Positions 3,249 to 43,560 of a stretch of 64,000 bases of DNA are shown one piece after another (the stretch's first letter is position 1; each line of letters begins with the position of its first letter). The stretch covers positions 1 through 64,000 of the forward strand of contig JACPZD010000005.1 of the NCBI GenBank assembly GCA_016195665.1, read 5' to 3'. The notes beneath the pieces were generated by a model. It was given only the letters and a program-made list of their open reading frames with translations. It searched no databases and had not been told where the DNA came from. Position numbers and translations under genes: made by a program. This DNA comes from Gammaproteobacteria bacterium. GTDB lineage: Bacteria; Pseudomonadota; Gammaproteobacteria; SURF-13.

Positions 3249-4091
3249 ATGAGCCGGTCCTCTACTCTTTCGGTTGCGATTGTTTGCTATCGCCCCGATA
3301 TTTCTTTGCTAAGCAAAACGATTGAGAGTGTCAATGCAGCAATCGGGTATGCACAAGACAGGGGTGAATTGGGCGAAACAGCGTTATGGTTGATTGACAA
3401 TGGTCCGCATCAGGAGGGGGAGACTACTGATATCACAAGCTTGTTGCGTGGTGAACGGGTACAGCTAAACGGTGTGCCTGTAGAGGTAATCAGGTGCGAA
3501 GAAAATCTGGGCTATGGACGAGGCCATAATCTCGCCATCCGGCGCACCAGCAAGGACTATCATTTGATATTGAATCCAGACGTCATCTTGGCGGAAGACG
3601 CGCTGTCCCAGGCCCTCGCTTTTATGGGAGCACATTCCGATGTCGGCCTGCTGGCGCCGGCGGTGACCGGAGAAGATGGCGCACCGCACTATTTATGTAA
3701 ACGCTACCCTGCTGTGTTCGATCTTCTGTTGCGCGGTTTTGCTCCGCGAGCCGTTCAGCGCTTGTTTCGAAAGCGCCTTGCTTATTATGAGATGAGGGAT
3801 GTGCTCAATACTGCGACGGCATTGGATGTGCCCATGGTGAGCGGTAGTTTTATGTTTTTCAGGCGCCCCGTGCTTTCAAAGCTGGGGGGCTTCACGGATG
3901 ATCTGTTTCTGTACTTTGAAGATTTCGATCTCTCTCAAAGAACGCGTGAAATAGCGCGCACCGCCTACGTGCCCGCCGTCCGCATCCGGCATTTTGGAGG
4001 TAACGCGGCAAAGAAGGGGATGGCTCACGTCTGGATGTTCATTAAATCCGCTTTTATTTTCTACAATAAGCATGGATGGAGATGGTGGTAA
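3249..4091 (+). CDS. GT2 family glycosyltransferase (rhamnosyltransferase-like)
   Basis: The 280-residue protein has the GT-A order of family 2 enzymes: N-terminal SVAIVCYRPD, an LIDNG strand, then NLGYGRGHNLAIR and a DxD-like LILNPDVIL near residue 115. The C-terminal acceptor side contains GGFTDDLFLYFEDFDLSQR. This pattern is typical of WbbL-type transferases that add deoxyhexoses to cell-surface glycans at the cytoplasmic membrane. It starts at ATG 3249 just after the broken ATPase. It converges with the minus-strand surface cluster, and the two stop codons abut at 4091/4092. Substrate cannot be told from sequence. Confidence 0.85.
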   Translation: MSRSSTLSVAIVCYRPDISLLSKTIESVNAAIGYAQDRGELGETALWLIDNGPHQEGETTDITSLLRGERVQLNGVPVEVIRCEENLGYGRGHNLAIRRTSKDYHLILNPDVILAEDALSQALAFMGAHSDVGLLAPAVTGEDGAPHYLCKRYPAVFDLLLRGFAPRAVQRLFRKRLAYYEMRDVLNTATALDVPMVSGSFMFFRRPVLSKLGGFTDDLFLYFEDFDLSQRTREIARTAYVPAVRIRHFGGNAAKKGMAHVWMFIKSAFIFYNKHGWRWW

Positions 4092-5969
4092 TCAGAGATT
4101 CCCGATAGATTTGTTTTCCCGGCAGTAGCTCCATAACTCAGGCCATACATTCAGCGCACTGCCGTAACGTTGTAATACATCGCGCGTCCCCTCACTACCG
4201 AGCCGGCCTGCCGACAGTTCTGCCTGATTTGATGGATTAACGTCATCGGACGGAGTGGATGTGCCGTTGGCGGTGATGATGCGTTGCAGGTCTTTGATCC
4301 AGTAGTCCGGCGCATCGGGATGTTCCTGCAGACGATTGTGCAGGCGTCGTATCACGTCAGCCCGCATGGATAGCCTGTGTTCCTGGAGAGCGGTCTTGAA
4401 GGTGCTCTCATCGGCGTCGGCAATGTCGAGATAAAGCGTTGCGAGGGTATGGAGGCGTTGCGCAGTGTGCCCGGCCAGGCAACGCGGCGCATCGCGCAGG
4501 GCAAGATCGGCGAGATAACCGAGCACGTTCGGCCTGGCGGCTCTGTCCAGGGCGTCCCTATCCCAGCGGCGCGGCGGTTCGGGAAGGTGTAACAACCCCC
4601 ACGAAAACTCAAGCACGAGCATATCGGGATAAAGATATTGTGTGGCGGCGCCGAACAATGCGTCTTCGTTGCCGAACTCGGGCGCGGTGGGCGGGAGCAG
4701 GCGGCGATTATCCAGGCCCATGGCGGTCGTCGTCATGAGGCCTTTGGAGGTTGCGAAATGCAGGCCCGGATGGCCCCACCACAGTGTGCGGGAACTGCTG
4801 TTGTGCAGGTAGTCGGCCTCGCTGGCGATAAAGCGTTGCCAGGAATCCTTATCCAGATCGAATAACCAGCCTGGAGAATTGATGCCGGGATCGCCGAAGC
4901 TTCCGGCGACTGTTAATAATACCGGCGAGGCTTTGGCCACGCGCGATATTTCGTGGGGTTGCAGGCGGCTTACCGATGCCTGTGTCAGAGTGCCCCCGGA
5001 AAAATGCCCCAGCGCCTGCGTCAGGGTTGCGCCGAGTATTTCTTGATGCTGAGCGATAGGGTCTATGTCGGCAATCTGATTACGTTTCAGCAGCTCGTCA
5101 CGATCAGGATAAAAATTAACCTGCCGCTCACGGCCGGAGATTTCTACTGCGGACGTGTGATGCGGGGACTTATACGCCACAGGCAGGGCGTCGTCATCGA
5201 ACATGACGAAGCGTTCGCCGGCGCTCAGCAATAAAGCATAGTTCCAGGTGCGGCCATAGGACGCCGCGCCGTAACCCGGAGTCGCATTCAAAAGCCATTG
5301 TATCGTTGGCGCATGCTGCGGGAACTTCCGGCATAGAGTTTCCGTAAAGCGCTGCTGGGAAGTTTGGCCGTAGTAGGCGACGTTCAAGCTCTGCGCGGCG
5401 AACTCTGCTACGGATTGGTTATTCTGCTGTTGCTGTTCTGAAGACTTGGAGTCGTCGAGGATGATATAGCGATAATGATTTTTGAAGCGCTTTTCATTAT
5501 CCAGGAAACTGTTTAATAGCCGGCGCAATTGCTCAGGGCGGTCGCAGGCACGCACCATTACGCTATGCAAGGGGCCCGCGCTGTATGGAACGGCCGGTAT
5601 GGACAGCTCGCGGACAATATCCATGGCGCTGGTCATGAAGCCTTGGGTAGAGAGCGAGTCCAGGATGCGTCGCACCTCGGCGGCTTGATCTGCGAGTGCG
5701 GGGACAAGGCCGGTTACCCGGCTGACGTGATCGTCGAGGCTGCGGAATTCGCGGCACAACTGCAGGGTGTTTAATACATCCAGACCCACCGCAACTTCGG
5801 CGCCGGTGCGCTTGCTTCGCAGCAGACAGTGACTTGCAGAGAGCGGGAAGACGTGGCAGTCATCTAACGCTATTAAAGGCACGCTATTTCCTTTAGGTGC
5901 AGCAGATACAACCGTTGGAGCCTGGCTCCATGAATAATCCAGTGTCGTTTCGGGCTTTTCTTGATTCAT
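4092..5969 (-). CDS. PqqD-like domain fused to a DxD glycosyltransferase-like protein
   Basis: ATG 5969 is preceded by AAGGA at good spacing, so the longer frame reaching 6173 is rejected. The protein has about 625 residues. Roughly residues 25-110 (VPLIALDDCHVFPLSASHCL and on to LDSLSTQGFM) look like a PqqD/RRE-type winged-helix domain. A GT-A-like region follows: HSVMVRACDRPEQLRRLLNS, YIILDDS and RFVMFDDDALP, the last a DxD-type metal site. The remaining 300 residues are unrecognised. It is the last gene of a minus-strand run behind exosortase H and its partner. A role in glycosylating a sorted surface protein is an inference. Confidence 0.6.
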   Translation of the reverse strand: MNQEKPETTLDYSWSQAPTVVSAAPKGNSVPLIALDDCHVFPLSASHCLLRSKRTGAEVAVGLDVLNTLQLCREFRSLDDHVSRVTGLVPALADQAAEVRRILDSLSTQGFMTSAMDIVRELSIPAVPYSAGPLHSVMVRACDRPEQLRRLLNSFLDNEKRFKNHYRYIILDDSKSSEQQQQNNQSVAEFAAQSLNVAYYGQTSQQRFTETLCRKFPQHAPTIQWLLNATPGYGAASYGRTWNYALLLSAGERFVMFDDDALPVAYKSPHHTSAVEISGRERQVNFYPDRDELLKRNQIADIDPIAQHQEILGATLTQALGHFSGGTLTQASVSRLQPHEISRVAKASPVLLTVAGSFGDPGINSPGWLFDLDKDSWQRFIASEADYLHNSSSRTLWWGHPGLHFATSKGLMTTTAMGLDNRRLLPPTAPEFGNEDALFGAATQYLYPDMLVLEFSWGLLHLPEPPRRWDRDALDRAARPNVLGYLADLALRDAPRCLAGHTAQRLHTLATLYLDIADADESTFKTALQEHRLSMRADVIRRLHNRLQEHPDAPDYWIKDLQRIITANGTSTPSDDVNPSNQAELSAGRLGSEGTRDVLQRYGSALNVWPELWSYCRENKSIGNL

Positions 5970-6028
5970 AGAGTTCCTTGATGGTGGGGCGCGAGGGAGA
6001 ACTAATGAGTTGAGGGCGCCCTCAACTC

Positions 6029-6637
6029 TCAGGTCCCTGTTACGGGCTGAGAGCGGTCCAGCAGCCTGTTCAGAAAACTTCGATTCATGGCGATCCATAA
6101 GACAGCGGTGGAGATGGGCGGCAGGATGAGGTAGCCGAATTGGTAGCCGAGTGCGATGCCTTCGCGGGTCCATTGCGGGAAGTTTACTTGCGTTGCGACA
6201 GTCGGACCGAGATCGAAGGCCACTGTTTTTAGAAATTCAAAACAAACGCCCCAGGCCTGAAAGGGCAGCAGGCCCACATAAGCAATAAAGAGCTTGCTCC
6301 AGGAAACGCTCAAGCCTTCGACAGCGAACAGCAATGCTATCAGTAAGGGGAGGCTATAGCCGTAAATGAGCGGGTTGATTTCAACGACGATAAGGCCCTT
6401 ACCCTGTTGCGGCTGCGCCGCTGGTATCTCGGCTTCGAAGGGTGTGACGAAAGTGAGTTTGTGATCGCCCAGCTCGACGTTGGTCAGCAGATGGGTGGTA
6501 GATTGCTGCAAGGCGAACTTGGATATCGTTGCCAAAGGCAGGTTAAGCAGGTTGGCGGCCTGGTACCAGAACACAAAGCTAAGCGGCAGCCAGATCAGCG
6601 TCCTCAATAGAAATGCATAGAGCGGGTTAGAAGGCAT
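6029..6637 (-). CDS. Exosortase H-associated membrane protein
   Basis: The 202-residue protein has an N-terminal membrane helix (TLIWLPLSFVFWYQAANLL), a periplasmic-like segment around residues 45-85, then three or four more hydrophobic helices. This size and layout, with an 11-base overlap with the upstream exosortase H frame, match the membrane protein usually encoded next to xrtH. Its biochemical job is not known. It probably works with exosortase H in processing IPTL-type C-terminal sorting signals. The gap of 59 bases to the PqqD-like gene suggests one operon. Confidence 0.8.
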   Translation of the reverse strand: MPSNPLYAFLLRTLIWLPLSFVFWYQAANLLNLPLATISKFALQQSTTHLLTNVELGDHKLTFVTPFEAEIPAAQPQQGKGLIVVEINPLIYGYSLPLLIALLFAVEGLSVSWSKLFIAYVGLLPFQAWGVCFEFLKTVAFDLGPTVATQVNFPQWTREGIALGYQFGYLILPPISTAVLWIAMNRSFLNRLLDRSQPVTGT

Positions 6638-7121
6638 GGGCGGTGTTACGCGGCAACATCCGTATCCAGACCAGCCAGACGATCATCGCGTCGAGCATGA
6701 TGAGCGCCTGCCAGATATACAGGTGCGCCCAATCAAACGCCTCGCGGTCCCATTGTCCAATGTAAAACAGGCTGATGATGCGCACCAGGTTGAGGCCCTG
6801 GATGGCGAGAAAGCCGATGGCGAAGCCGATCAGCTTGTGCCACGCGGAGGCGGGAAAGGCGAGGATGGCGGCGAGCAGGATGAGCGTGGCCTCTACCCCA
6901 TTGCAGCCGGCGACTATCTCTACGCCAAAGCCGGTGCGGATGCTTTGGATAATAACGCCGCCGGAGCGGACATCGCTGTCAAACAATTGCATGAGCCAGG
7001 CGCTGATCTTGGCCAGCAACCCCGTCCAGGGGATGATGACGGCCTGCTGCACCGGCTGGAGTATCTCCACGGTGAACAGAACTATGAGCAGCAAAAGAAA
7101 AATGGCGAAGAAGCGAAACAT
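6627..7121 (-). CDS. xrtH: Exosortase H (IPTLxxWG-CTERM sorting protease/transpeptidase)
   Basis: The 164-residue integral membrane protein carries the exosortase catalytic triad motifs. AGCNGVEA holds the nucleophilic Cys (about residue 72), NLVRI the conserved Arg (about 112), and WAHLYIWQ the His (about 133). The short length with no C-terminal extension fits the H subfamily, which cleaves proteins ending in an IPTL-type signal, a transmembrane helix and basic residues. No protein with such a tail is visible in this window, so the substrates must be encoded elsewhere. It is the first gene of the minus-strand surface operon. Confidence 0.85.
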   Translation of the reverse strand: MFRFFAIFLLLLIVLFTVEILQPVQQAVIIPWTGLLAKISAWLMQLFDSDVRSGGVIIQSIRTGFGVEIVAGCNGVEATLILLAAILAFPASAWHKLIGFAIGFLAIQGLNLVRIISLFYIGQWDREAFDWAHLYIWQALIMLDAMIVWLVWIRMLPRNTAHAF

Positions 7122-7299: not shown

Positions 7300-10200
7300 C
7301 TATATCTCATATAAGCGGCTGCATGCCGTAAATAGTAACAAGGTGCGCACAGCCTTTTCAGGCCACAGCCTGCCTGCGGCTACGCCGTAGTGATACAGTT
7401 GTCCGCGGTAGGGTTCAGCCAATTCGGTCAGGTTATCCGGGCTGGCTATTTCATGGGTTTTGTAGTCTACGACGGTGATGTGATCGGTGTGCACCACCAG
7501 GCGGTCTATGACGCCGTGCACCATCGTCGCGCCGGCTTGATAAGAAACGGGGACCTCGTTGTAAGCGGCGAGATAACACGTAGGGTCATAGAGGTCGCGG
7601 AACTGCGGTTGGCGGATGATTGCGCAGGCCTTGCTCCACCAGCCCTGCAGGGTGTTGTCGCCGGCCTCTAGTCCGTGTTCGTGGGCGATAAGTTTCAGCA
7701 GCTCGCTGTCCTTTATTGGGGGCAACGCGGTTAGTTTTTCCAGCATGCGATGAATGACGATACCGCGCAGTCTGCCGTCTTCGTCATCGCCGTAAAGGGT
7801 GGGTTGCGAGCTGCCCGCCCTGCTTGGCGCGATTTCTGTCACTCGGTTTGGTAGCAGGATAGGCTGAGATAAGCCGGCATCTATTTCGACGGGTTCACGC
7901 AAGAGATCATGTTGTGATGCGGTGATCTCCGTTGTTCTCTCGCCCGATTCAATCACCTGTGCGTCTTGTGACGCACAGGGATGTGCTAATGCCGCAGGCG
8001 CAGGAAGCGCAGGAGCGGCTTCGCCCGGAGGCGACAAAGCCTGTTGGATGAGACCGTACCAGCCGAGATCACTGCCTTTGTTCGGCGCGCAGCCGGAGAT
8101 GAACAATAGTTGCTGGGCGCGGGTGAGGGCGACATAGAGCAGATTGGCGTCTTCGCGCCGTTCCGCCGATTTATGCCGTTCGAGTAATGTCTGGCTCAGC
8201 GTATCGAGATCCTCTTTTCTACCGCTGAGCAGAAAATGCGTGGGGCGCGGCGCCGCGGAGGGCCACTCGATCAATACCTGATAAGGCCGCGTGGACGGTG
8301 GCGCACGACCGGCGTCGGCGAGAAATACCACCGGCGCTTCGAGCCCCTTGGCCGCGTGTATGGTCATGATCCGCACGGTCGCTCCCGGCATCCTGCCTCC
8401 TGCGACATTAGTACTTCCCTGTACGTCACAAGAAGTGATGCCGGGCGCTGCGGCGTCATCGGGCGCTTCTCTATCGGCCTGCGCCATCGCGCGAAGCTGG
8501 GCGCGAAACTGCGGCGGACTGGGGTAGCGTCCGCTGTCGAGTTCCAGCGCAAGTTCGATAAATCGTGTTAGATTGCCTAGCACCCGCGCTGTGAGATGAT
8601 CGGGGAAGGCCGCCCCAAAGCGCGCCATAACGCCGCCTTCACAATAGATACGATCCAGCAGATCATGCACGGGCAGCCGGCCTGCGAGCGCGCGCCATTG
8701 GCTGAGACTATGGTGCGCGCGGCAAAGCGGCGTGCCAGGCTGTAATTCCGGAGCGAGCAGCTTGAGCCGCTCATTCCAGGGCGTTTCATCTGAAGAGTGC
8801 ATGGCGAGCCGTATGAGATCGGCGTCGCTGCATGCAAACAGCGGAGAGCGCAACACCTGCGCCAAGGCCAGATTGTCATAGGGGGTAATCAAGGTGTCGA
8901 GCAGGGCGAGCATGTCCTGCACCTCCAGACTTTCGAGGAGGGTGCCGCGCGCCGCGCCCAGGTAGGGGATGCCGGCTTCGCGCAGCGCGGCTTCGTAACT
9001 CTGGGCATGGGTGCGGTTACGCAGCAGGATGAGGATGTCGCCGAAATTGACGGGCCGCGCATTCCCCGGCGGGCCAATCAGGGTGCGCGTGTCAATGAGT
9101 GTTTGAATGCGTTGCGCGATGAGGCGGCCTTCCTCCAGGTGACGGATATCTTCTTCGAGTACGCGCGGCTCTAGTAAAGGATTGCGTAATGCGTCCCGTG
9201 CACTATTATCCGGCGCCGTCTCGGCAACAGTAATCAACGGCAGCAGTTCGACACGTCCCCACAGGTCGTCTTGATGTGTGACGTGTGTCTCAAAATCGCC
9301 GAGCTGCTCCGCCAGTGCGGGCAGACTGAAGGTCCGGTTCACACATTCGATGATGGCCGTCGCCGAACGCCACGAGGCGTGCAGCGGGAAGCTTTCGGAC
9401 TGTAAATTCTTCTCCAGCCAGGACCGGGCCGCGGTGAACAGGTGAGGGTCGGCGCGGCGGAAACGGTAAATGGACTGTTTGTGATCGCCCACTAAAAATA
9501 CACTGCGCTCCCGTGTAGGTCCCGAGGCAAGTTCCTCTAACAGAGGCAGGATCAAATGCCATTGCGTGGGGTTGGTGTCTTGAAACTCATCAATCAGTAA
9601 ATGGTCAATGCGCTGATCCAGTTTATACTGCACCCACAGGGCATGATCGGAGCGGTTTAACAGGCGATACGCCTGCCACTCCAGATCGCTGAAGTCGAGC
9701 AAGCCCTGTTCCGCCTTGAGGCGTTGATAGTGATCGAGATAACGGCTCCCGGCCGTGAACCAGGCGCGCGATACGTTAAGGGTAGAATGTTTGGCAAACC
9801 ACGCCAGCCGTTCGCACACGTGCTCAAAGATAAATACGAAACGCCGCGCGGCGGCATCACCCAGAAGCGTTGACTGCGCCTTGGTGATGGGACGTTTGCG
9901 CGGCGTGCCGTCCTGAGTGAGAAACACCTCACGGATCATCCGGATATGCAGTTCATTGTGTTCAGTGTGGTTCAGACAGTCTTGCAATAGCCGGATGTGA
10001 TGCGGGTTGCCTGAAAACTTCACCAGCAATTCGGCAAACTCATGCAGTTGCTGTTGTACCTCTGACGTACATGGATGTACTAATGTCGCGGGAGGCAGGA
10101 TGCCGGGAGCGACCGCTGAAAAGAATTCACTCACCGCATCTGAATCTGGGTCAATCTCCAACTGTTTTGCGAGGTTCATGACTGCAAAGCCGACAGGATC

Positions 10201-10821: not shown

Positions 10822-10908
10822 CCCGCCTCCTGTGCCGTACAGGGAGTACCCATGTCGCGAGAGGCAGGAAGCCGGGAGCGACCGACATTAGTACCTCCGT
10901 GTACGTTA
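10807..10908. repeat. Nested palindromic element, composite D (addB/addA junction)
   Basis: A forward element is split after its CTGCCTC-equivalent by a complete reverse element, giving 102 bp. It fills the interval between the AddB-like stop codon (10909-10911) and the AddA-like gene, and it extends into the first AddA codons, supplying the apparent ribosome binding site and ATG. Confidence 0.88.
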
Positions 10909-13900
10909 CTAGACATGCCGTGATTCTGCGACAGGCCATGCCTGGCGGCGGCACAGACCCTGCATCTCGCAACGTGCGCAGGTTTTTGGATCGCCCCAGG
11001 CCGGTGCGCCTGTTCCTTCACGCAGCGCCTGCATGACGGCATCGAGCCGCTGCGCCGTCAGGGTGCTCAGCCGGTGCAGCTCTTCCCCTTCCAGCCGCGC
11101 GCCCGGTTTGACCAGATCTTTATCGAGCAGCAAATACTCGACGCGCTCTATATTATCGTTATATAACTGCTCCGCCAGCAGCGCATAGAAAATCAACTGC
11201 GTGGCCTCGCCGCTGGAGACGTCCGCCTGCTTGTCACCCTGGCCGGTCTTGTAATCCAGGATGTGCAGCCCGTTCCGGCGCCGGTCTATGCGATCCAGCC
11301 GCCCGGTTAGCGTGAGGCCATCCGCCCGAGCGCTGCGCACGCTGACCTCGCAGGCGAGTGGTGAACCCTCCTGCGCGATCTGCCAGTCAATGTAATCGGG
11401 GATAATCGCCAGCCAGCGCGCCAGCCAGGCGCGGTGTACGAAGTTTTTTTTCACATCGGGGGCGAATACGGCTTGGCTGATTTCGGTGAGCATGTGAATC
11501 GCCCGCGCGCGGTTTTCCGTCGCGATCGCTTCGCTAAAAGGGCCGGGTAAATCTTTGGCGCCGCAGTGAAAGGCTTGCAGGATACGATGCGCGCGCTCAC
11601 CGAAGTCGCTTTTTTCGAGCAGCTCCTGTACCTCCTCGGACACGCGGAGTTGCAGGGCGTGTGCGGCGAAGAACTGATACGGACAATCAATGAGCCGCTG
11701 GTGAGCGCGGGCGGAGAGGGTGTCCGGCAATAGCGCCCGATCTATCGCGGGCCGCGGCCGGACGGTTCGGGCGGGGAGGGTGGATGGATCGGCATGGCTG
11801 ATCTGGGCGCGAGGTTCATTGATCAGCGCGGTGAGCGTCTTGTCGTCCAGCCGGTCGCCATAGGCCAGGAGATGAAATGACTGCAAGGCCTCGACCCACG
11901 GACTGGGGAGGATGGGCTCGCCGTCCTGTTCGCGGCGCAGCGTGATCGTCACCTGCGGGGCGCACTCCAGCAATCGCCGGAAGTGGTAAAAGCGTGTGCA
12001 GAGTTCGTCATGACGCGTGGCGAGCCCCAACTCGCGCCGTACCGCGCTGTTGAAAAAGGGCGATGGCGGACCGCCGCCGGGCAGATGCTCGTGGTCGGCC
12101 CCGGCGATGATCAGCGCATCGAAACGGCACAGCGCTGTCTGTTCCAGCGCCAGCAACTGCACCGGACTGCCGGTATTATTCGGAACAAAATTCGCCGTCT
12201 CCAGGCTGCGCGCCAGCCAGGCCCGGAACTCCCGCCAGTTCATGCGCAGGCTGCGCCCAAAGAGCGCCTGCTGCAACGCCTCTATTTCAGCCAGGATGCG
12301 TTGCCCGGCGGCGTCATGAGCCAGCGCCTGGGTTATTCCCAGTCGCTGCAGGCTCTCTTGCAGGGCGTTGAGCAGGGTCTGGGGGTGATGTGCGTGCCCC
12401 TTCAACAGCGGCAGCAGAGGCTGGGAGGCGCGGTCGAGATCGGCGATGAGTTGGGCGATCGCGTCGCGCCCCTGCGTGAGGTGCGGCAGGCGCTTACGGG
12501 TCGTTCCCGGCATCCTGCCTCTGACGTACAGGGAAGTACTAATGTCGCGGGAGGCAGGACGCCGGGAGCGACCCGCGACATTAGTACTTCCGTGTACGTC
12601 ATAATTGTGCAGCCCGCGCGGGAGATTGGCGCGGCGGATGATGTCGCGCTCCAGCCGGTAGACGGTATCGAGATGCTTGTCCCGGTCACGGTCCGGAAAG
12701 ACAAAACTCGATTTGAGCAGGTCGAGCAGGGGGTCGTGGGCGAAATCCTGCTCCACCGTCTGTAGCCAACGCTCAATCGTGCTCGCGGCGCTGGTGGTGG
12801 ACAGCGCCCATCCTGCCGCATCCTGAAGAGTGACACCGGCGCGCTCCAGCAAGGCCCGGATACGGCGGGTGAGGCGTCTGTCCTCGCTGACGATGCCGAT
12901 GGCGCTACGGCCCTCAATCAGCCAACGGCGCACCTGGATGTCCACCGCCTTGGCCTCTTCTTCGGCCCCGTTGGCCGCAAACACCGACAGCCGGGTCGCT
13001 CCCGGCGTCCTGCCTCCCGCGACATTAGTACTTCCTTGTACGTCACCGGTGGCGGGGCTGTTGGAGCGGCGTTCCGCAAACGCACTTGCGCGTACCGCCA
13101 AAGCGGCGCTGCTGGGCGCATACACACTAGTTACAAAATCCGTGAAATCATCGTGGGATACTATTACCGTAGCGTCGCACTGCATGTTTTTTAGCAGCCT
13201 GACGAGAGGCGCGTCGGGAGCGGAACCGTGCAGAATGAGACTCAGTTGCCCGCGTTCATGCAAGGCCTTGCACCAGGCAAGTTCGGCGGGATAGAACTCA
13301 TGAAATCCCGCCAGATAAAAATGCAGATTGCCCGGAATGGAACGATCACCGAGCCTGGACACATAGGCGCTGCGCCCATCCGTCTTGTGTTCGGCCTGAA
13401 GCTGATCGCGTAGCGCTTGCCAGAGGGTGTACACGACGCGGGCCTCGTCGCCCAGCGCCGCAGTGGCGATACCGTCAGGCAGGCCATACGCGTGCGCCAG
13501 CCGTGCCGTGAAGTGTTCCAGTGAGACGGGAGGGTCAGTCTGCCGCAGGGTCAATTCATCGAACAGCCTCAGCAAACTATCGGCTATTCGCCAGGGGGCC
13601 GCTCCCGGCGTCCTGCCTCCCGCGACATGAGTACTTCCGTGTACGTCACCGCCAAACAGATCCGGATGCTCTGCCAGGGCCTCTACGAGGAGGAGCGCGC
13701 GTGCGGGCTCTGAAATCACCCGGCCCGTTATGGGAACATGACGCTCCATCCAGCCGCGCAGGGTATCAATGTTCGGCCCCAGCAGGGCGTGATGACCGTG
13801 CGCCTGGGCGCGTTCCAACAGCAGCCTGCGCAGGCGCGGCGCGGCGCTCAGCGTAGGGAGCAGAATGACCGAGTTCGTGAGATCAGGCAGGGACGCCTGT

Positions 13901-14417: not shown

Positions 14418-14469
14418 GGTCGCTCCCGGCATCCTGCCTCCCGCGACATTAGTACTGCCTTGTACGTCA
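14418..14469 (+). repeat. Palindromic coding element, copy H (fdxA/PHP intergenic)
   Basis: A complete forward copy in the divergent promoter region, ending 14 bases before the PHP gene ATG (14484). Its hairpin 2 is GTACTGCCTTGTAC. Confidence 0.93.
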
Positions 14470-19443: not shown

Positions 19444-20562
19444 TTGAAAAAACCCGCCTCGCGTTTTTTCAAGCCCGACGTGGCTGATGTGAGTTCGAAG
19501 CCACCGAAGCGTTCCAAAGCGCCGGCCCGGCGCGCCGCGCCGCCGCGTCCCCACGCTGCGCCGCGGAAGGTATTGCAACACCCCGTTGCAGCGCCTCTCC
19601 CCCGCCCATCCACCGAACCGGTCACTCCCGGCATCCTGCCTCTGACGTACAGGGAAGAACTAATGTCGCGGGAGGCAGGACGCCGGGAGCGACCCGCGAC
19701 ATTAGTATATCCGTATACGTCAGGGGAAAAGCTGCAGAAGGTCTTGGCACGCGCGGGTTACGGCTCGCGCCGTGAGATTGAGGGTTGGATCGCCGAGGGG
19801 CGCATCACGGTCAACAAGCAGGTGGCCAAACTGGGCGACCGGGTCAGCGAACACGATGCCATCCTCATAGACGGCCATCCGCCGCAGGCCCACCGTCTGG
19901 CCGGGCCCAAACGGCGTGTGCTGGCCTATTATAAACCGGAGGGTGAGGTCTGTACCCGCACCGATGAGGAAGGCCGTCCGACCATTTTTGACCGCCTCCC
20001 CAAGCTCCGCAACGGACGCTGGATTGCGGTGGGTCGCCTCGACATCAGCACCCAGGGCCTGATTCTGCTCACCACTGACGGTGAGCTGGCTCATCGTCTC
20101 ATGCACCCTTCCAGCGAGGTCGAGCGCGAATACGCGGTACGGGTTTTGGGAGAGGTCACGCCCGAGGTGTTACAAGCCTTGCGCCAAGGCGTGCCGCTGG
20201 AAGACGGCATGGCGCATTTCGACGCCATTCAAGAGGCGGGCGGCACGGGCGCCAACCACTGGTATCACGTCGTCCTCAGGGAGGGCCGTAACCGCGAGGT
20301 GCGCCGCTTGTGGGAGTCACAAGGGGTTACGGTGAGCCGCTTGACGCGGGTGCGCTATGGCCCGGTCACTCTGGGGCGGCGGCTGCGCGCCGGGCAGTGG
20401 CGCGAACTGGAGAGCGACGAGGTACGGACGTTGGCGCAGCACGCGGGATTAGAACAAGTTTCCACACCGCGCGGCCAGCCAGTGACTCAACCCGAGGTCA
20501 AGTCCGTTAAGAAATCCGATGCGACGCGCCGTATCGCCCCACGCCGCCGTCAGCCCCGCTAG
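19444..20562 (+). CDS. rluB: 23S rRNA pseudouridine synthase B
   Basis: This enzyme makes a pseudouridine in helix 80 of 23S rRNA (position 2605 in E. coli). An S4 RNA-binding domain ([20 protein letters not shown], about residues 96-115) precedes the RsuA/RluB catalytic domain, with the catalytic Asp in [20 protein letters not shown] long Lys/Arg/Pro-rich N-terminal extension carries a nested 103-bp palindromic element in frame (about residues 59-93), ending just before the S4 domain. The C-terminus is basic, as is usual for RluB. TTG 19444 is the only plausible start, next to the scpB stop. Confidence 0.9.
19620..19722. repeat. Nested palindromic element, composite J (inside rluB)
   Basis: Same nested plan and junction as composite E. 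Hairpin 2 of the outer copy is GTATATCCGTATAC: both arms changed from GTAC to GTAT/ATAC, so pairing is kept. In frame it encodes [20 protein letters not shown] and on to the S4 domain. Confidence 0.93.
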
Positions 20563-37593: not shown

Positions 37594-37676
37594 GTAGGGT
37601 GGGCACGCCGTATGTGCCCACCTGTTTGAGTTGGGATTGAATCCAGGGGTGGGCACATACGGCGTGCCCACCCTAC
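37594..37676. repeat. Perfect 29-bp inverted repeat with 25-base loop
   Basis: GTAGGGTGGGCACGCCGTAT and nine more bases (37594-37622) are the exact reverse complement of 37648-37676. It starts four bases after the Cys-rich gene stop. It could be a terminator or a small non-autonomous mobile element; the GTAGGGTGGGCA motif recurs near 1452. The rest of the 37677-37846 interval shows nothing else clear. Confidence 0.9.
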
Positions 37677-42304: not shown

Positions 42305-43543
42305 ATGATCCCGCCTGTAAGCCTAACCGTTGGAGGACTTCCTCATACCTGTATTCAGGGAGAAACTCTAAGCCTCACCCTGCGCTTTTCGGTTACCAAT
42401 CTTTGCGTCTTCGACCCCGTCCTGCGGATCTTTATCCGCCGTCGTGGCGAGACGGCGCATCTGCTCAGCGCCGATACGCATCAAGGCGGTTTATTCTTCC
42501 CGTGGTTGCCGCGCGGCGACTATTCATTCAACTATAGCCACAGGCTTCCCTTTCCGGAAGGCGACTACGAGTTGGGGATCGCCTGGGGTAGCCCGAGGGA
42601 GATTCGTGATCCGGATATTGTGCATACCTTTTGTATTCTGGCAGGTGCATCGGAGGTATCTGCGGAAAATCCTTCCCACTGGAAGATGTCCGAAGAGACC
42701 CGTTTGCGTGTAGAGAAATTGTCCTGGCAAGCAGGCATGAAAAATTGGTTTCACCGTCACTTCTGTCATGCGGCCTGTGTCATTGGTGAAACTTTTTTAG
42801 CCCATTCTCCGCTCCTCAAAGGGCGGATTCTCGACATCGGCGGAGGCGACGGCGTTACTGATCTGAGTTTGTTCCTGCGTTACCGGCCGCAGCAATTGGT
42901 GGTCATGGATATCGTAGACTACATCGCCGAGCTTCCTCGGGTGGCCACCGAGAATGGGCTGCCGTTGGAACGGCTGCCTGACAACTTCGTTTTCGTGCGG
43001 CAAAGCTGTGAATCGGTGCCCTATCCCGACGCGAGTTTCGATGTCGTGCTCTCTTGGGGCTCCGTGGAACACATCGTAGGCGGCTACAAAAAGGCCCTCG
43101 ACGAGGTCTGGCGGGTGCTCAAGCCGGGCGGTTTGTTTTTTGTAAACCCGGGGCTGTACTATTCTTCCTACGGCAGTCATCTGGGCGAGTTTAGCGACGA
43201 GCCGCACCTTCATCTCAAGATTCCCGAAGAGGAATTGCGCGCCCTGGTCATGAGTGGTCGTCCCCGCTTGATGGACCGCGCCGGGTTCGATGTCTCAAAC
43301 GCTGAGTACTGGCGCTTTTACAAGGAATTAAACCGCATCAAGGTCGCGGAGTTCGAGGCCGAATTGAAGGCCTACGGTTACACCATAATCAGGGCCGCGT
43401 TGCGGGTCAATGATGTGGTCGAGTACAGTCCCGAGCTGCAACACTACAGCGTGCTCGACCTGGCGATAGAGGATGCCTTTTTTACCCTTCAGAAGCCCGC
43501 TGGATTGGGGTCGCTCCCGGCATCCTGCCTCCCGCGACATTAG
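42305..43543 (+). CDS. Wzt C-terminal-like domain fused to a class I SAM methyltransferase
   Basis: The roughly 412-residue protein has an N-terminal beta-rich domain (VSLTVGGLPHTCIQGETLSL ... PFPEGDYELGIAW, about residues 5-100). This resembles the sugar-binding Wzt C-terminal domain of O-antigen ABC transporters. A methyltransferase follows: RILDIGGGDGVTDLSL for SAM binding (about 178-193), VRQSCESVPYPDASFDVVLS, and WRVLKPGGLFFVNPG. Glycan methylation is a reasonable inference. GAGG is five bases before ATG 42305. The C-terminal residues [11 protein letters not shown] and the TAG stop are read from a palindromic element, so the natural end has been replaced. Confidence 0.75.
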   Translation: MIPPVSLTVGGLPHTCIQGETLSLTLRFSVTNLCVFDPVLRIFIRRRGETAHLLSADTHQGGLFFPWLPRGDYSFNYSHRLPFPEGDYELGIAWGSPREIRDPDIVHTFCILAGASEVSAENPSHWKMSEETRLRVEKLSWQAGMKNWFHRHFCHAACVIGETFLAHSPLLKGRILDIGGGDGVTDLSLFLRYRPQQLVVMDIVDYIAELPRVATENGLPLERLPDNFVFVRQSCESVPYPDASFDVVLSWGSVEHIVGGYKKALDEVWRVLKPGGLFFVNPGLYYSSYGSHLGEFSDEPHLHLKIPEEELRALVMSGRPRLMDRAGFDVSNAEYWRFYKELNRIKVAEFEAELKAYGYTIIRAALRVNDVVEYSPELQHYSVLDLAIEDAFFTLQKPAGLGSLPASCLPRH

Positions 43544-43560
43544 TACATCCCTGTACGTCA
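43509..43560 (+). repeat. Palindromic coding element, copy K (3' end of methyltransferase gene)
   Basis: A complete forward copy with hairpin 2 GTACATCCCTGTAC. It is read in the one forward frame that contains a stop (TAG), so it terminates the upstream gene. It also lies just after the stop of the convergent SDR gene. Confidence 0.94.

Follow-up and report, generated by a model that had tools for sequence, protein, structure and literature searches.

A glycosyltransferase with an RRE fold as a probable accessory of an exosortase H-linked surface-glycan and secretion locus in Gammaproteobacteria

In our study, a stretch of 64,000 nucleotides from a gammaproteobacterial genome (hereafter, the window) was analysed, in which the gene of a 625-residue protein lies beside that of exosortase H (XrtH). 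This protein is probably an accessory cytoplasmic glycosyltransferase of a surface-glycan/type II secretion pathway which works together with XrtH, a reading to which we assign a probability of about 0.58. It is predicted, from its structural model, to be a GT-A glycosyltransferase with intact catalytic motifs that carries at its N-terminus a RiPP recognition element (RRE) fold, of the kind that binds peptides in peptide antibiotic pathways, and it is referred to below as the RRE-GT fusion.

All four genes that the first-pass annotation had placed at the xrtH locus were found there. The xrtH gene (6627..7121, minus strand, 164 aa) scored 194.1 bits against TIGR04177 (cut-off 86), and its product has the triad C73, R114 and H133, which was identical in 7/7 XrtH sequences compared. 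It overlaps by 11 nt with the gene of a 202-aa membrane protein (6029..6637, minus) which scored 186.2 bits against NF041730, the NCBIfam family 'exosortase H-associated membrane protein' (cut-off 35), both scores being far above the cut-offs. The RRE-GT fusion is encoded on the same strand at 4092..5969; the mechanical open reading frame spans 4092-6173 and the likely start is the ATG at 5969. The fourth gene encodes a GT2 glycosyltransferase (3249..4091, plus, 280 aa; PF00535, 42.3 bits against a cut-off of 23.3), which is convergent with the fusion as had been described, its last base immediately preceding the fusion's stop codon. The proposal that xrtH, its partner and the fusion form one minus-strand unit holds as far as the strand is concerned, but a perfect 22-nt palindrome resembling a terminator hairpin (6007..6028, minus, z -2.6) lies directly after the stop codon of the partner gene and 37 nt ahead of the fusion's ATG. 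Co-transcription of xrtH and its partner with the fusion is not assured because of this intervening hairpin.

The full-length fusion showed no significant family match (PF00535 remained sub-threshold at 12.7 against 23.3 bits), and its N-terminal domain had no Pfam or NCBIfam match by sequence. The AlphaFold2 model, built on an alignment of 36 relatives, reached a pLDDT of 86.4 and a pTM of 0.87. Residues 30-123 (5601..5882, minus), modelled in isolation with a pLDDT of 93.2, are predicted to form strands followed by three helices. The top Foldseek matches of this domain in the PDB were RRE-bearing RiPP enzymes, namely TruD, a LynD-type heterocyclase and TbiB1 with its leader (a lasso RRE), along with TigE, MadB, the sactipeptide enzyme 5why and ThcOx, at modest statistics (best E 2e-3, probability 1.00). 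Moreover, two relatives matched the lantibiotic dehydratase N-terminus weakly (best E 0.0018), which agrees with an RRE fold. The RRE-like domain read from the sequence was hence borne out by the structure prediction, whereas its assignment to the PqqD family was not: PF05402 had no match among 29 relatives of the fusion, and PqqD itself (5sxy) ranked only 25th by fold. The glycosyltransferase region with a DxD motif was also confirmed. It corresponds to a GT-A domain of about residues 131-470 (4560..5579, minus; approximate boundaries), in which D172-D173-S174, D258xD260, D420, E435-D436 and H461 are conserved, so that both the DxD (D258-D-D260) and the ED motif are present and the catalytic motifs are complete. 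Its closest solved folds are GlfT2, RmlT and TarS, which differ from the fusion in showing about 10% identity, low TM-scores and no RRE domain. The remainder of the protein is a helical C-terminal domain (4092..4559, minus) with invariant P554, W557, D560, N568 and W609.

When one peptide pattern was scanned against a single genome per species, 42 relatives of the fusion were obtained, at 25-36% identity. These come from Dokdonella and other Rhodanobacteraceae, Lysobacterales, Marinicella, Alcanivoracaceae MAGs and one Halothiobacillus MAG, the remaining ones being less precisely assigned gammaproteobacterial or pseudomonadotal MAGs; no relative was found in the viral contigs searched. In 40/40 relatives whose contig continues, the next gene downstream of the fusion is a GT2, codirectional with it in the relatives and convergent in the window genome. 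On the other hand, xrtH falls within the fetched flank of the fusion in only 1/42 relatives (L083), at a distance of 6.7 kb. Direct adjacency of the two is restricted to the window genome, and the fusion was absent from the XrtH loci examined in other genomes of the class. A dedicated XrtH operon as a conserved unit is ruled out by these neighbourhoods of the fusion and of xrtH. Together with the intervening hairpin, they indicate that the 'exosortase H operon' of the first-pass annotation, a four-gene cluster whose conservation was in question, is an arrangement of the window genome. At the level of gene neighbourhood, the fusion is thus found mostly away from exosortase clusters.

The association reappears at the level of whole genomes, where the expected functional link between fusion and XrtH is supported. 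XrtH scored above cut-off in 39/42 fusion genomes, as against 13/369 genomes drawn across the class. In the order of G369 (250 genomes), both genes occur in 106, only the fusion in 6, only XrtH in 40 and neither of the two in 98 (Fisher p 9e-29, only indicative since the genomes are related and such p-values overstate their independence). Among the six genomes with the fusion alone, the hit in G429 is very weak and G629, which is 63% complete, has a partial one; the remaining four are likewise incomplete (77-85%). The pairing also varies within families: in f181, both genes occur in six genomes and neither in seven, and the listed f13 genomes comprise one with both, one with XrtH and the locus described below but no fusion, and otherwise only genomes with neither. 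The dependence runs in one direction; the fusion implies XrtH, and the converse does not hold. The fusion is not needed for XrtH, because XrtH and its substrates with IPTL tails occur without it (40 genomes).

In most relatives the fusion is housed in a conserved locus with the usual gene order GspD secretin, small lipoprotein, SURF, sec9, PPIase, Wzm, Wzt, GT2, methyltransferase, RRE-GT and GT2, where SURF denotes an exported protein about 480 residues long, sec9 a secreted protein and PPIase a PpiC-type enzyme. SURF had no convincing NCBIfam family (21 members) and no Pfam match (one member scanned). In the window genome, the lipoprotein, SURF, a sec9-like protein, PPIase and methyltransferase are encoded on one strand of contig C4, with Wzm and Wzt on the opposing strand; this locus core is apart from the fusion and its GT2, which lie beside xrtH on C5. 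XrtH genomes that lack the fusion keep the same locus, the methyltransferase then abutting the GT2 (e.g. L204, L209, L210). SURF was detected in 8/13 XrtH genomes of the class sample versus 5/356 others (Fisher p 2e-10, likewise only indicative). Within the order, it was found in 33/40 XrtH-only genomes, in 0/6 XrtH-negative genomes tested and in 10/10 tested genomes with XrtH and a fusion hit (one hit being weak). The GspD/SURF/Wzm-Wzt locus thus tracks XrtH even without the fusion. Distant SURF relatives also occur in four genomes without XrtH (G030, G120, G207 and G352). In the first of these (L181 8171-19899, G030:C2), several SURF-like proteins are encoded beside genes resembling those of the lipoprotein and the PPIase, which may point to a related system that uses another sorting enzyme.

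The genome search for IPTL-tailed proteins recovered one strong tail on contig C39 of the window genome and two mini-proteins near the cut-off on C22. The former (L049 8030-8889, minus, G000:C39) is ice-binding-like, and no other strong IPTL-CTERM protein was found in this genome; its gene is apparently split into two overlapping ORFs, with the domain partly missing. The mini-proteins (L050 6394-6567 and 6618-6806, minus, G000:C22) have 57 and 62 residues and contain little besides a signal peptide, a brief PPPVQAPALDEWGL stretch, a membrane helix and basic residues, with an ALDEWG tail; from this composition they are predicted to be near-minimal XrtH substrates. An IPTL-like motif on C26 was discarded as a chance pattern match, since it falls inside an ORF resembling nadB. 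Across genomes, IPTL tails were found in 19/22 with XrtH versus 0/8 without it, regardless of the fusion, and a regular-expression scan found none among the ORFs of the relatives' fusion loci. The earlier suggestion that the RRE is guided by the C-terminal tail is therefore not favoured, because proteins with such tails also occur in XrtH genomes devoid of the fusion, and only the basic end of the tail should face the cytoplasm. Two other candidate ligands were compared by distribution, and neither was specific to fusion carriers: the SURF signal peptide is conserved equally in fusion-free genomes, and sec9 occurs in fusion-free loci too. Hence, no RRE ligand was found among the candidates compared.

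These observations can be accommodated in a pathway in which the RRE would bind a peptide segment of a pathway protein, either an exported protein prior to its translocation or a partner enzyme, and sugar transfer would thereby be directed or tethered. Wzm and Wzt would export the glycan, and in the periplasm XrtH would then process the proteins with IPTL tails, which it might join to the Wzm/Wzt glycan or to its lipid carrier. Type II secretion may finally carry the products to the surface. The analogy with the MYXO-CTERM and PEP-CTERM systems makes glycan-linked surface display the most economical reading. Besides the relatedness of the genomes, the occurrence of XrtH without the fusion and the lack of a ligand among the candidates, two further points count against the accessory role: xrtH is usually far from the GspD/SURF/Wzm-Wzt locus, and the data may fit glycosylation of a protein and of a lipid-linked acceptor alike. 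A stronger form of the proposal, in which the RRE picks exported proteins, the Wzm/Wzt glycan is joined to exosortase H proteins by XrtH or its partners and type II secretion exposes the resulting glycoproteins, is tentative and in our judgement unlikely.

The alternative that survives best is that the protein takes part in glycan assembly as an ordinary glycosyltransferase would; its RRE-like domain would then serve only for docking to another protein, e.g. the GT2 or Wzt, and would read no substrate peptide, the link to XrtH being inherited from the locus. The constant GT2 partner, the position of Wzm/Wzt beside the fusion in the locus, the XrtH-linked loci in which the methyltransferase and GT2 are adjacent with no fusion between them, and the failure to notice any precursor-like gene would all suit such a role. 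However, four genomes (G418, G420, G438 and G472) keep the locus but encode the fusion elsewhere, and there too it co-occurs with XrtH; moreover, the nearest solved folds of the domain are peptide-binding RREs and not generic winged helices. We regard docking alone as a possible but not a probable explanation. A RiPP pathway, in which a small precursor would be bound through its leader by the RRE and glycosylated by the GT domain, as in glycocins or mycofactocin, is very unlikely. The RRE fold is consistent with it and RRE-glycosyltransferase fusions have been reported among RiPP candidates (PMC12710340), but the spacing of the conserved genes speaks against it: the genes flanking the fusion in the relatives abut or overlap, leaving no space between them for a precursor gene. 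Moreover, the surrounding genes encode large exported proteins, a secretin and an exporter of the O-antigen type, and neither a maturase nor an exporter of RiPPs was recognised. An operon dedicated to exosortase H, whose fusion protein would recognise and glycosylate the XrtH substrate guided by that substrate's C-terminal tail, draws on the adjacency in the window and the genome-wide co-occurrence and is highly improbable in view of the single 6.7-kb case elsewhere, the hairpin and the IPTL substrates of fusion-free XrtH genomes.

In comparison with described systems, the window genome shares XrtH, the partner and IPTL-tailed proteins with the exosortase H/IPTL-CTERM system (TIGR04177, TIGR04174, NF041730), whereas these family definitions contain no RRE-GT fusion, Wzm/Wzt or GspD locus. 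A link between an exosortase and glycans is itself already known for another exosortase: PEP-CTERM/EpsH has been tied to exopolysaccharide genes by genome distribution, with such genes adjacent to epsH, and the accessible part of that report mentions no RRE-glycosyltransferase (PMC1569441). The MYXO-CTERM/myxosortase and GlyGly-CTERM/rhombosortase systems are alike in that C-terminally tagged proteins are processed and placed on the surface, which MYXO-CTERM proteins reach by type II secretion (PMC11980579). They differ in using unrelated proteases, and no RRE-bearing glycosyltransferase is described in the accessible parts of these sources (PMC11980579, PMC3237569). The initial view that no system of such composition had been described needs to be narrowed, as RRE domains fused to PF00535 glycosyltransferases were already reported as a class (PMC12710340). 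The domain pairing is the same as in the window; that class was noted only as Pfam co-occurrence in RiPP mining, whereas the present family belongs to an XrtH-linked glycan locus. A literature search on exosortase H/XrtH, and on PqqD with glycosyltransferase and exosortase, returned nothing relevant. As far as the searched literature shows, what is new is the XrtH-linked GspD/SURF/Wzm-Wzt locus with an RRE-glycosyltransferase as an accessory member.

To our knowledge, the attachment target of cleaved exosortase substrates in Gram-negative bacteria is still open. With its glycan exporter, glycosyltransferases, secretin and uncharacterised exported protein, the locus that tracks XrtH supplies genes to delete and narrows the possible acceptors to a few. 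In addition, the RRE-glycosyltransferase offers a test case of whether RREs direct the modification of large exported proteins. If the glycoprotein form of the proposal were true, the Wzm/Wzt glycan would be the acceptor or a decoration of XrtH proteins; an exosortase would thereby have an identified glycan partner, and RRE-guided protein glycosylation would occur outside RiPP biosynthesis.

Some further features of the window and of distant sequences were also recorded. A repeat of about 50-60 nt with the core CGACATTAGTACTTCCCTGTACGTC has ten copies in the window versus zero expected (8403-8427, 10064-10088, 10883-10907, 12523-12547, 12576-12600, 13020-13044, 13623-13647, 14444-14468, 19644-19668 and 43535-43559). 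It often lies in frame within coding genes, e.g. recB-like and recC-like ORFs, to which it adds peptides, and a similar repeat-derived peptide was seen in a mannose-1-phosphate guanylyltransferase-like ORF on contig C4; in this respect it resembles the palindromic elements inserted in Rickettsia genes. Tandem and dispersed repeats with 208-nt and 85-nt copies were found at 1241-1878 and 37594-37676, and a perfect 29-nt inverted repeat, GTAGGGTGGGCACG...CGTGCCCACCCTAC, was listed with them. A relative of the GT domain without an RRE forms the C-terminus of a 1294-aa protein (L046 4444-8328, G016:C171) which has a phosphopantetheine (carrier protein) domain and, by eye, an FkbH-like N-terminal part. 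Distant GT relatives in two different families (L047 6618-10085, G088; L048 5474-8845, G257) adjoin an ORF resembling a thiamine-diphosphate (acetolactate synthase-like) enzyme.
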